Shown here: positions 3,727-23,670 of the stretch, piece by piece
Numbering within the stretch: the stretch's first letter is position 1
How the letters are laid out: each line of letters starts with the position of its first letter
Assembly (NCBI RefSeq): GCF_000243395.2
Contig: NZ_CM001484.1
Span: 1,727,841-1,763,101, forward strand
Direction: 5' to 3'
DNA: 35,261 nt
From: Saccharomonospora glauca K62
GTDB taxonomy: Bacteria; Actinomycetota; Actinomycetes; Mycobacteriales; Pseudonocardiaceae
Notes under the pieces: generated by a model
The model's database searches: none
The model's input: the letters and a program-made list of their open reading frames with translations, nothing else
What the model was told of the DNA's origin: nothing
Translations under genes and position numbers: made by a program

Positions 3727-4671
3727 ATGCGGATCGCGATCCTCGACGACTACCAGAACGTCGCACGGGAACTGGCCGACTGGGACTCGCTCGACGCCGA
3801 GCTCCACGTCTTCACCGAGCACATCGCCGACGAGGACGAACTCGTGCGGCGGCTGGCGGGTTTCGACGTGGTGGTGGCCATGCGGGAGCGCACGCCGTTC
3901 CCCGAGTCCGTGCTGTCGCGGCTGCCCGACTTGCGGCTGTTGGTGACCACGGGGCGGCGCAACGCGTCCATCGACGTCGCGGCCGCGCGGCGACACGGCA
4001 TCCTCGTGTGCGGCACCGGATACGTGTCGCATCCGACGGTGGAGCTGACGTGGGCGTTGATCCTCGCTGCCTGTCGTCACCTGCCCACCGAACTGCGGGC
4101 CATGCGTGAGGGCGGCTGGCAGAGCACCCTCGGGGTGGGACTGCGTGGCCGCACCCTGGGCGTGCTCGGGCTGGGACGGCTCGGGTCGCAGGTGGCCAAG
4201 ATCGGGCAGGCCTTCGGGATGCGCACGATCGCGTGGAGCCACAACCTCACCCCCGCCAGGGCCGCCGAGCACGGTGTCACGGCGGTGTCGAAGGACGAGC
4301 TGCTGGCGAGTTCGGACGTGCTGACGGTGCACCTCGTGCTCAGCGAGCGCACGCGAGGGCTCCTCGGCGCCGCCGAACTCGCGGCCATGAAGCCCACCGC
4401 ACTGTTGGTGAACACCTCGCGCGGGCCCATTGTGGACACCGACGCCCTCGTGCGGGCGCTGCGCGACGGCGTGATCGCCGGAGCAGCCCTCGACGTCTAC
4501 GACGAGGAACCCCTGCCCGCCGACCATCCACTGAGGTCGTTGCCCAACGCCGTGCTCACCCCGCACATCGGGTTCGTGACACGCGACACCTACGAGGTGT
4601 TCTACCGCGACGCCGTGGCCGACATCGCCGCGTTCCGCAAAGGCGAGCCGGTGCGAGTGCTGGAGCCGTGA
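3727..4671 (+). CDS. D-2-hydroxyacid dehydrogenase family protein
   Basis: 314 residues, NAD(P)-dependent, related to D-3-phosphoglycerate dehydrogenase but without the C-terminal ACT/ASB domains, so not SerA. The dinucleotide site GLGRLG lies at residues 148-153. The catalytic Arg232 (NTSRG), Glu261 (DVYDEEPL) and His280 (LTPHIG) are all present. The N-terminal MRIAILDDYQN opening is typical of a subgroup annotated only as D-2-hydroxyacid dehydrogenase. The substrate is unknown. The gene appears leaderless and stands alone between the EEP gene and a convergent beta-lactamase-like gene, whose stop lies only six bases beyond its own. Confidence 0.9.
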   Translation: MRIAILDDYQNVARELADWDSLDAELHVFTEHIADEDELVRRLAGFDVVVAMRERTPFPESVLSRLPDLRLLVTTGRRNASIDVAAARRHGILVCGTGYVSHPTVELTWALILAACRHLPTELRAMREGGWQSTLGVGLRGRTLGVLGLGRLGSQVAKIGQAFGMRTIAWSHNLTPARAAEHGVTAVSKDELLASSDVLTVHLVLSERTRGLLGAAELAAMKPTALLVNTSRGPIVDTDALVRALRDGVIAGAALDVYDEEPLPADHPLRSLPNAVLTPHIGFVTRDTYEVFYRDAVADIAAFRKGEPVRVLEP

Positions 4672-5523: not shown

Positions 5524-5595
5524 GGACACGCGTACCGCACGTGCGGACACGCGTACGGCAGCTGCGGACATGCGTGCGCAGGCTGCGGACACGGC
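5524..5595. repeat. 21-bp tandem repeat, three copies plus a partial fourth
   Basis: Copies at 5524-5544, 5545-5565 and 5566-5586 with a partial copy from 5587. Each begins GGACAYGCGTRC and ends TGC, the period is exactly 21, and differences cluster in the second half of the unit. It lies between the stop of the alpha/beta hydrolase gene and the promoter of the beta-lactamase-like gene, both on the minus strand. Because 21 is a multiple of three, all frames stay open across it, but no protein role is apparent. Confidence 0.85.
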
Positions 5596-20795: not shown

Positions 20796-21377
20796 GTGGC
20801 GCCACGATCACGTGGCGTGACGGGATCGGCCGCTGAGCGCGAGTTGCTCTCGGCCGGTGACGTTGCGCGCACCATCGCCCGAATGGCCCATCAGGTCATC
20901 GAAAAGACCGCGCTGGGTGCCGAGGGCATGCCTCCACCCGTGTTGCTCGGGATCCCCACGAGGGGGGCACCGCTCGCCACCCGACTCAGCACGAAGATCA
21001 CCGAATTCTCCGGGGTGACGGTGCCCGCGGGCACGCTCGACGTCACTCTCTACCGCGACGATCTTCGGCGCAGGCCCACGCGCCCCCTTTCGCAGACGCA
21101 GCTTCCCGACACCGGCATCGACGACCGCGTCGTGATCCTGGTCGACGACGTGCTGTACTCCGGCCGCACCGTCAGGGCGGCGTTGGACGCGCTGCGGGAC
21201 CACGGTCGGCCCAGGGCGGTGCAACTGGCGGTGCTCGTCGACCGGGGACACCGGGAGCTTCCCATCCGCGCCGACTACGTCGGCAAGAACGTGCCCACCT
21301 CGCGCTCGGAGGACGTCTCCGTGCTGCTCGCCGAGGTGGACGGCCGGGACGCCGTACTGCTGGGGGTACGTCGATGA
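20796..21377 (+). CDS. pyrR: Bifunctional pyr operon regulator / uracil phosphoribosyltransferase PyrR
   Basis: 193 residues. PyrR binds UMP/UTP and the pyr mRNA, and has uracil phosphoribosyltransferase activity. Type I PRT fold with the PRPP loop [14 protein letters not shown] (about 111-124) and the [11 protein letters not shown] loop near residue 52. GTG start with AAGGAG seven bases upstream, just downstream of its own RNA target. First gene of the pyr operon; overlaps pyrB by four bases (ATGA). Confidence 0.96.
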
Positions 21378-22309
21378 AGCACTTGCTGTCCACCGAAGGC
21401 CTCGACGCGGCCTCGGCCACGGCGGTGCTCGACACGGCAGACGAACTGAAGCGGACCCTGCTGGGCAGGGAGGTCCGCAAGCTGCCGACCCTGCGTGGCC
21501 GCACCGTCGTCACGTTGTTCTACGAGAACTCCACCCGCACCAGGGTGTCGTTCGAGATCGCCGGCAAGTGGATGAGCGCGGACGTGGTGAACGTCTCCGC
21601 GAGCTCTTCGTCGGTGGGGAAGGGCGAGTCGCTGCGCGACACCGCGTTGACCCTGGCCGCGGCGGGAGCCGATTGCGTCATCCTCCGGCACCCGGCCTCC
21701 GGCGCCGCCCACCGGCTCGCCGACTGGTTGCGCGACACCGGGACCAGCGTGGTCAACGCCGGGGACGGGACGCACGAACACCCGACCCAGGCGTTGCTCG
21801 ACGCGGCGACACTGCGGGAACGGCTCGGCGACCTCGCCGGCCGCCGGGTGGCGATCGTGGGTGACATCCTGCACAGCAGGGTCGCCCGTTCGAACGTGCA
21901 CCTGCTGACGACGCTCGGCGCCGAGGTGACACTCGTCGCGCCACCGACCCTGTTGCCGGTGGGCGTGGAGTCGTGGCCGGTCGTCGTCTCCCACGATCTG
22001 GATTCCGTGTTGCCCGCCTCCGACGCCGTGATGATGTTGCGAGTGCAGGCGGAGCGCATGCACGGAGGTTTCTTCCCCTCGGCGCGGGAGTACTCGATCG
22101 CGTACGGGCTGAACGAGACCAGAGCGCGGCTTTTGCCGGAGCACGCGGTGGTGTTGCATCCGGGCCCGATGCTGCGCGGCATGGAGATCGCCTCGGCCGT
22201 GGCGGACGCACCGAACGCGGCGATCACGGAACAGGTGCGCAACGGCGTGCACGTGAGGATGGCGGTGCTGTACCACCTGCTGGCGGGAGATGGAGGCGAC
22301 CGTGACTGA
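21374..22309 (+). CDS. pyrB: Aspartate carbamoyltransferase, catalytic chain
   Basis: 311 residues. Condenses carbamoyl phosphate and aspartate to carbamoyl aspartate. Signatures: [13 protein letters not shown] (carbamoyl phosphate site), SSVGKGES loop, [35 protein letters not shown] and the late HPGPM. No regulatory chain (pyrI) is present. Its last residues GDGGDRD are encoded by the first copy of the 23-bp repeat, and its stop lies inside an 8-base overlap with the next small ORF. Confidence 0.96.
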
Positions 22310-22384
22310 GAATCAGTGGCAGTCGGGGGCGCCGACCGGGTGCGGGTGGCCCGCAGGAAACGGAGGCGACCGTGACTGAGAATC
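22292..22384 (+). repeat. 23-bp perfect direct repeat, 70 bp apart, at the pyrB-pyrC junction
   Basis: The 23-mer starting GGAGGCGACC and ending GAGAATC occurs at 22292-22314 and 22362-22384. Each copy holds a ribosome site (GGAGG), a GTG start and a TGA stop in the overlapping string GTGACTGA. The 47 bases between copies are unlike the flanks apart from short GC-rich matches. Confidence 0.95.
22302..22379 (+). CDS. 25-codon ORF bridging pyrB and pyrC
   Basis: Starts with the GTG of the first repeat copy and stops in the second; the peptide is [20 protein letters not shown] followed by GGDRD. Its first four residues (MTEN) equal the start of PyrC, and its last five (GGDRD) equal the end of PyrB. 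It overlaps both pyrB and pyrC by the same eight bases GTGACTGA, and has GGAGG at 22292-22296. It may be a coupling ORF that carries ribosomes from pyrB to pyrC, or a by-product of a junction duplication. No family is recognised. Confidence 0.5.
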
Positions 22385-23670
22385 GGAACTTGCTGCTACG
22401 GCGGGTGCGGCCGTACGGCGAGGGCGAGCCGGTCGACGTGCTCGTCTCCGACGGCGTCATCGCCGAGATCGGGCGGCTCGACCCGCCCGGCGGCGTCGAG
22501 GTGATCGAGGGCGAGGGACGGATCCTGCTGCCGGGATTCGTCGACCTGCACACGCACCTGCGGGAACCGGGCCGCGAGGACGCCGAGACGATCGAGACCG
22601 GGTCCGCCGCGGCCGCGCTGGGCGGCTACACGGCGGTGTTCGCCATGGCCAACACCGACCCGGTGGCGGACAACGCGGTGGTGACCGACCACGTGTGGCG
22701 CCGGGGGCGCGAGGTCGGACTCGTGGACGTGCACCCGGTCGGCGCGGTCACCGTGGGACTCGCGGGGGAGCGCCTGGCCGAGATGGGCACGATGGCGAAC
22801 TCGGCCGCCGGGGTGCGGATGTTCTCCGACGACGGCCACTGCGTCGCCGACCCGCTCGTGATGCGCAGGGCGCTGGAGTACTCGACCGCGCTCGGCGTGG
22901 TGGTGGCCCAGCACGCCGAGGAACCGCGCCTCACCGTCGGGGCCCAGGCCCACGAGGGAGAACGGGCCGCCCGGCTGGGGTACGTGGGCTGGCCCGCGTC
23001 GGCGGAGGAGTCGATCGTCGCGCGGGACTGCGTGCTGGCACGACACGCACGGGCCCGGCTGCACGTGTGTCACGTCTCGGCGGCGGGCACCGTGGAGGTG
23101 CTGCGCTGGGCCAAGGAGCAGGGCACCGAGGTGTCGGCCGAGGTGACTCCCCACCACCTGCTGCTCACCGACGAGCGGTTGGCCACGTTCGATCCGGTCA
23201 ACAAGGTCAATCCGCCGTTGCGCTCCGAGGCCGACGTGCAGCGGATGCGCCGGGCGCTGGCCGACGGGGTCATCGACTGCGTGGCCACCGACCACGCGCC
23301 GCACGCACCGCAGGACAAGGACACCGAGTGGACGACGGCCCGTCCGGGGATGCTCGGACTGCAGACCGCGCTGTCGGTGGTCGTGGAGACGATGGTCCGT
23401 CCCGGCCTGCTCGACTGGCGCGGCGTGGCGCGGGTCATGAGCGAGCGGCCCGCCGAGATCGTCGGGTTGCCGGACCAGGGCAGGCCGCTGGCCGTGGGTG
23501 AACCCGCCAACCTCGTGGTGGTGGACGCGGACGCGGAGTGGACGGTTCGCGGTTCCGAGCTGGCGAGCCGGGCGACCAACACGCCGTACGAAGGGCTGCG
23601 GCTTCCGGCCGTGGTGAGCCTCACGCTACTGCGCGGGCGTGTGACGTCGCGCGAAGGGAAGATTGTGTGA
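22372..23670 (+). CDS. pyrC: Dihydroorotase, type I
   Basis: 432 residues. Cyclises carbamoyl aspartate to dihydroorotate. Zinc-site motifs: [13 protein letters not shown] (first two His), the NTDPV segment, [16 protein letters not shown] and the ATDHAPHA motif with the catalytic Asp. The 430-residue length and [10 protein letters not shown] mark the class I metal enzyme. GTG start at 22372 has the second repeat's GGAGG at 22362-22366, five bases upstream. Confidence 0.96.

Follow-up and report, generated by a model that had tools for sequence, protein, structure and literature searches.

A dispersed MIRU-like mini-repeat with a target-mirroring arm at the pyrB-pyrC junction of Saccharomonospora glauca K62

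Introduction

What is the perfect 23-bp direct repeat at the pyrB-pyrC junction of Saccharomonospora glauca K62, and how do the two genes come to be linked through a bridging reading frame of only 25 codons? The junction lies in the window, by which we mean the whole stretch of 35,261 nucleotides that was analysed (contig NZ_CM001484.1, positions 1,727,841 to 1,763,101 of the forward strand; coordinates below are those of the window). A first-pass annotation had read the locus as a duplicated junction and the bridging frame as possibly a coupling device, a regulatory leader or a recent duplication. We conclude instead, with a probability of about 0.8, that the junction holds a dispersed mini-repeat of the MIRU type, probably mobile, which inserted at the start/stop overlap of pyrB and pyrC, mirrored its target on insertion and was tolerated because coupling was kept.

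Results

The two copies of the repeat, GGAGGCGACCGTGACTGAGAATC, lie 70 bp apart on the forward strand at 22292-22314 (T1) and 22362-22384 (T2), and each contains GGAGG, GTG and TGA, as first described; extended upstream, the repeat covers 32 nt at 91% identity. T1 carries a Shine-Dalgarno GGAGG, the GTG start of the mini-ORF, the TGA stop of pyrB and the box GAGAATC, and T2 a Shine-Dalgarno, the GTG start of pyrC and the TGA stop of the mini-ORF. The 25-codon mini-ORF runs from GTG at 22302 to TGA at 22377-22379 on the same strand, and would, if translated, act as a relay from pyrB to pyrC; the claim that it overlaps both neighbours by identical bases is borne out, the overlaps with pyrB (21374-22309) and pyrC (22372-23670) both being the 8 bases GTGACTGA. 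NCBIfam identifies pyrB as aspartate carbamoyltransferase, pyrC as dihydroorotase and the upstream gene as pyrR. The pyrR gene (20796-21377) heads the operon, and control of pyrimidine synthesis by PyrR is likely to be present apart from the junction element. Three families of direct repeats of at least 20 nt within 300 bp occur in the window, and that of the junction is the longest, the other two being 21 nt; these lie at 334-414 and 5524-5565 with spacings of 60 and 21 bp, each divisible by three.

From T1 onwards the junction consists of the T arm of a stem (GGCGACCGTGACTG, 22295-22308), a loop with the 5′ box of the element (AGAATCAGTGG, 22309-22319), a second arm, T′, which is an inverted, site-specific copy of T (CAGTCGGGGGCGCC, 22320-22333), a conserved core (GACCGGGTGCGGGTGGCCCGCA, 22334-22355) with a hairpin TGCGGG-TGG-CCCGCA at 22341-22355, and a tail GGAAAC (22356-22361), all on the forward strand. 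When the 281 bases of the junction were searched against their own genome they matched at four other places, and the 22-bp core GACCGGGTGCGGGTGNCCCGCA has eight exact copies at five places. Allowing up to three mismatches added two matches with three mismatches each, compared with one match for the reversed control, and the chance expectation in the window at this threshold is 0.03. The other sites lie between gltB and gltD, after zwf, before moaB/mog, where the element forms a 72-bp tandem array, and between ABC permease genes (NCBIfam naming covers gltB, gltD, zwf, moaB/mog and the downstream permease gene). At each of them a copy of some local stretch is found on either side of the core. 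Because the core recurs at these four places, a spacer made of local sequence only, as in a simple tandem duplication, was rejected; rather than a duplicated pyrB-pyrC junction, a core that recurs between repeats at many unrelated junctions points to an insertion that duplicated its target.

All 12 genomes of the genus contain the core at up to two mismatches, with 4-17 matches each and none for the reversed control. In the family it was found at up to one mismatch in 80 of 200 genomes and 28 of 46 genera, an upper figure that includes ordinary coding matches without the element plan (such as loci L160-L162), and the reversed control gave one match in each of three genomes. The exact core is present in at least 120 stretches of named records, with Amycolatopsis, Nocardia, Skermania, Saccharopolyspora, Prauserella, Haloechinothrix, Streptoalloteichus, Myceligenerans and Antribacter among the matches listed. 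Under strict filters our element model R1 matched 41 of 397 genomes of the order (34 in this family, five in f8/g65 and two weak) and seven of 394 genomes of the class, two of them weakly. A known RNA family was considered and rejected, as Rfam gave no match at gathering score in the window, and ten element loci gave only four weak miRNA matches below that score.

Variation in the core itself takes several forms. All 36 aligned units, which were chosen for the core, have the palindrome TGCGGG-TGN-CCCGCA unchanged. A long form, GACCGGGTTGGGCCC...GGAGGGTGTCCCGC, has an added hairpin and is found side by side with the short form within arrays (L101, L133, L136, L137, L148 and others); the short form may have arisen from it by internal deletion. 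Tandem arrays of the core alone, repeating about every 26 bp and without T or T′, were seen at L198 (about 4423-4640, at least eight copies) and L096 (about 743-790), so the core can multiply alone. The same junctions are also occupied across different genera, at sites that from the N-termini of the encoded proteins we take to precede nuoF (L174, L215, L243), pheT (L179, L188, L195), gltD (L180, L189, L240) and opcA (L154, L155, L157); these are either old insertions or repeated hits on the same motif.

A collection of 215 loci yielded 278 units (269 unique, ten with the long core) that share one plan, namely T, a box (GACAAT or similar), a loop, T′, the core, a tail and again T. T begins with GGAGG and extends through DTGA, that is, from the Shine-Dalgarno to the start/stop; T′ abuts the core, and its last CC faces the GG of GGAGG. 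A unit of box, T′ and core stands between two copies of its target at many unrelated junctions, with T′ as the reverse complement of the T found at that site. When the T′ of each of 234 units with CC before the core was compared with 100 swapped T′ arms, the unit's own arm was the best fit in 111 and within the top 5% in 175. This anchored test replaced a broader one in which the target window was too wide and only 158 of 269 units reached the top 5%. Pairing among units picked by spacing alone (31 distinct T at the commonest spacing) was 88.1%, compared with 63.4% after shuffling (z 10.6). For the remaining four spacings, in which bulges disrupt the fixed register, z was 5.6, 3.8, 1.4 (p33, weak) and 4.0. 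The spacer between Shine-Dalgarno and start, which is free of consensus, was 77% Watson-Crick in 97 ungapped units, against 36% for shuffled spacers and 41% for the highest single shuffle. In an aligned set of 36 units (of 37 selected) both sides vary at ten of the twelve pairs, but the set was chosen partly by pairing score and its 93.8% pairing is biased upward; the spacing-only test is the unbiased one.

Only 10 of 63 units with an identical second copy of T have a perfect ungapped spacer stem, so a perfect state at birth is not supported by these units, and Watson-Crick pairing by class was 82.6%, 81.6% and 77.6%, with units whose T2 is identical no more perfect than the others. Mirroring is equally strong where T lacks a start codon, which is the case in 17 of 177 T/T′ pairs (137 of 167 cells paired, compared with 1284 of 1579). 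Hiding a start codon cannot therefore be the sole reason for T′, and its independence of the start codon favours an arm made at insertion. Two of the start-less pairs belong to copies inside nuoG, one in each of two species, that leave the frame of the protein intact (named nuoG by NCBIfam for one). These copies, at about 670-760 of L092 and about 2640-2720 of L109 (minus strand), have no second copy of T, and the two species are not sisters in the pyr tree.

The departures from Watson-Crick pairing suggest that T and T′ pair as sense-strand RNA. Across 174 of the 177 distinct pairs, scored without any reward for G-U, the non-Watson-Crick cells comprise 168 G-U/U-G against 15 A-C/C-A, together with 127 other mismatches. 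Forty-eight of the latter are A-G, so T′ leans to G and part of the G-U excess is explained, but a comparison corrected for this bias still favours G-U: T′ has 48 G to 8 C opposite an adenine in T, 107 G to 4 C opposite a thymine, 61 T to 38 A opposite a guanine, and 1 T to 7 A opposite a cytosine. Where T1 and T2 differ, at positions up to DTGA, T′ agrees with T1 alone 74 times and with T2 alone five times, in a count whose register was fitted to T1 and in which T2 is loosely aligned in several rows; an earlier, wider count also favours T1. At pyrB-pyrC T1 and T2 are identical, so that both T1:T′ and T′:T2 stems are possible.

The insert preserves the reading chain between the genes on either side of it. 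Among the 153 units with a duplicated T that contains a start, the inner ORF stops at the next start in 98 (68 of them at -4), runs on in frame in 35, clashes in 11 and stops early in nine; the rest of the 278 units comprise 23 with a duplicated T without a start, 89 with no clear duplicate and 13 in which the ORF is open to the end of the locus. The 98 relay units divide into 70, 18 and 10 by the frame in which they read the core, so that all three frames are used, and a conserved mini-ORF peptide was rejected for this reason. Of 134 arrays, counted on 155 of the 215 loci, 94 lie between an upstream ORF that ends in T1 and a downstream one that begins at T2, and 58 of the 134 hold 2-6 copies. 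By a lenient test the chain is kept at 92 of these 94 junctions (78 by relay, 14 in frame, two broken) and by a strict-overlap test at 79 (65 by relay, 14 in frame, 15 broken). After random deletion of 1 or 2 nt, only 51% or 74% of chains respectively are kept and 49% or 26% broken (strict test, 45% or 73% kept and 55% or 27% broken).

The pyrB-pyrC junction was readable in 10 of the 12 genomes of the genus, and is occupied in five and empty in five. In all five occupied genomes the reading chain is unbroken even though no two inserts are equal in length, and the routes, in ORF codons, are 25; 25 + 38; an in-frame run into PyrC; 24 + 24; and 48. The proposal that the ORF keeps pyrB and pyrC coupled is supported accordingly. 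Its expected conservation among relatives applies to the chain of ORFs, which is kept throughout the occupied group, but not to the peptide, which is not conserved, or to the length of the insert, which varies, as does copy number between species. The occupied genomes form one side of a branch, a single clade with support 90/93 under a midpoint root, a pattern that one gain or one loss would explain. Relatives without the repeat had been named as the finding that would tell against a coupling role; we read the five empty junctions as a state either before insertion or after loss. They retain a Shine-Dalgarno and GTG start of similar sequence, which indicates that T is local and was not brought in. 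An assembly error at the junction was rejected, since the insertion is common to five genomes and its core is found at scattered sites.

Discussion

On the reading that we prefer, insertion would favour GGAGG N4-7 DTGA, mostly the Shine-Dalgarno/start/stop overlap of coupled genes, and would both duplicate T and write an inverted copy of it into the element. The simplest route to T′ would be template switching that copies T back into a hairpin arm, or corrects one. A ribosome terminating on pyrB would then restart at once on the mini-ORF, open the hairpins and end at the pyrC start, and the insert would be tolerated because of this relay, the stem being kept afterwards as RNA in which G-U pairs are allowed. 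Mobility is suggested by the dispersal of the element and by the comparison of empty with occupied sites; no fresh insertion was seen among the genomes compared, and because many sites are common to several species we infer that turnover is slow. More tentatively, and at somewhat less than even odds, the element may represent a new class of mini mobile element in which every insertion duplicates the target and also copies it in inverted orientation, through template switching or an RNA-paired step like that of guide-dependent elements, into a set position between two constant boxes. If so, it would bring to each site a custom hairpin (T1:T′, with T′:T2 as the alternative) and a coupled mini-ORF, and could enter essential operons unnoticed.

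T′ may not have been copied at all. A roughly fitting arm could have been inserted and then matched to its surroundings site by site through selection for a hairpin at the start codon, an account that would explain the G-U excess as a constraint at the level of RNA and that agrees with the preserved reading chains and with the failure of units with an identical T2 to pair more perfectly than others. It sits poorly with the equal mirroring of the 17 pairs whose T has no start codon, one of them inside the nuoG frame, where an arm that masks a start would serve no purpose, and we consider it a serious contender that is nonetheless rather unlikely to be correct.

Descent of the element from the mycobacterial MIRU family, beyond a shared plan, appears improbable. 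Unit size, start-codon sites, an inner ORF at -4 and tandem copies all agree with the relevant passages of the MIRU papers, but the R1 model, for all its matches elsewhere in the order, had none in group g53, which we take to be Mycobacterium, when 397 genomes of the order and 394 of the class were searched. The published ETR-D/MIRU04 primer site was found in 0 of 396 genomes of the group, so the likeness to MIRUs is drawn from published descriptions.

A palindrome of the REP/REPIN type moved by a RAYT (Y1) transposase would account for the palindromic core and the dispersal of the repeat, but is very unlikely here. Y1, the sole enzyme family searched for, was found in 4 of the 12 genomes of the genus and neither in this genome nor in three other near-complete ones (G002, G010, G011), so that mobilisation by Y1/RAYT is not supported, though a distant or lost enzyme may have acted; moreover, the sites are gene starts and overlaps, not only extragenic space. 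We are equally doubtful of a pyrimidine-specific attenuator that would regulate pyrC through alternative T1:T′ and T′:T2 stems. T′ can pair with either copy, and a single-sequence fold of the pyrB-pyrC stretch pairs it with T2 and not T1, closing the pyrC start (z -2.7, with 2 of 200 shuffles as good), a result that also weighs against the reading we prefer, but the same unit precedes genes of unrelated pathways and is absent from the junction in five of ten relatives. The first-pass proposal of a regulatory leader or coupling device, in so far as it was specific to pyr, fails for the same reason, given the units at gltB-gltD, zwf, moaB/mog and the ABC permease genes. Finally, a recent tandem duplication of the junction, retained since coupling survived, would fit the two perfect 23-bp copies and the intact chain, but is almost certainly wrong, being refuted as the whole story by a spacer core that recurs at unrelated junctions and as a recent event by an insertion common to five relatives in one clade.

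An insertion of a dispersed repeat that mirrors its target, the reading we favour, extends MIRU-like repeats tolerated within operons beyond the mycobacteria, and provides an inner arm that mirrors its target and that can be aligned across many unrelated targets. Our searches of open-licence papers listed no description of such repeats in other actinobacteria, or of mirrored targets. If insertion itself writes the arm, a single event would yield an RNA hairpin fitted to its site, and the means by which small repeats spread between coupled genes, a question long open, would become testable. On a practical level, users of genome annotations should be aware that short ORFs at operon junctions encoding these peptides are copies of the repeat, and that the predicted first residues of a downstream gene can be derived from the element, as illustrated by PyrC, which begins MTEN here and MTT in several relatives with an empty junction.

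The element works like the mycobacterial interspersed repetitive units (MIRUs), which were reportedly described by Supply et al. in 1997 and which, to our knowledge, are described as lacking dyad symmetry. According to passages of a 2025 review (PMC12548453), MIRUs occur in many mycobacteria and insert at start codons with an inner ORF coupled at -4 and little effect on the gene. Excerpts of other sources give a length of 40-100 bp and 41 loci in H37Rv (PMC2734929), units of 77 and 53 bp (PMC2453075), an M. tuberculosis stem-loop family containing MIRU repeats (PMC2267715), and, for the units at senX3-regX3, a presence confined to M. leprae and the M. tuberculosis complex (PMC4213456). With a 70-bp unit in eight copies at five genomic places, the element lies within the MIRU range as given in those excerpts and is likewise found at several loci. 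The two also resemble each other in their start-codon or operon-junction (DTGA) sites, with 94 of 134 arrays here spanning the end of one ORF and the start of another, in an inner ORF coupled at -4 (68 of the 98 relay units, the pyrB-pyrC copy overlapping by 8 bases rather than at this commoner offset), and in a variable tandem copy number. They differ in that the hosts of the element are Pseudonocardiaceae (Saccharomonospora, Amycolatopsis, Prauserella), Nocardia and a few others, and in its palindromic core and target-mirroring T′, neither of which is named in the MIRU passages, with which the comparison is by description only.

REP/REPIN sequences, which are associated with RAYT transposases, are short, dispersed palindromic repeats, and the element shares these features through its core; it differs in its position at gene starts and overlaps, its duplicated target, inner ORF and target-matched arm, and in a genome where Y1 was not found. 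Rickettsia palindromic elements are palindromic repeats able to sit in frame inside genes, as our element does in nuoG of two species, but it is found mainly at gene junctions, and the likeness is again drawn from description and not from sequence. Template-switch mutations, which passages of one study (PMC8794818) show creating and mending RNA hairpins, likewise generate an inverted copy of a neighbouring stretch and hence a perfect stem. In those passages they are sporadic events, whereas here such copying would be a regular step in the installation of a single family of elements.
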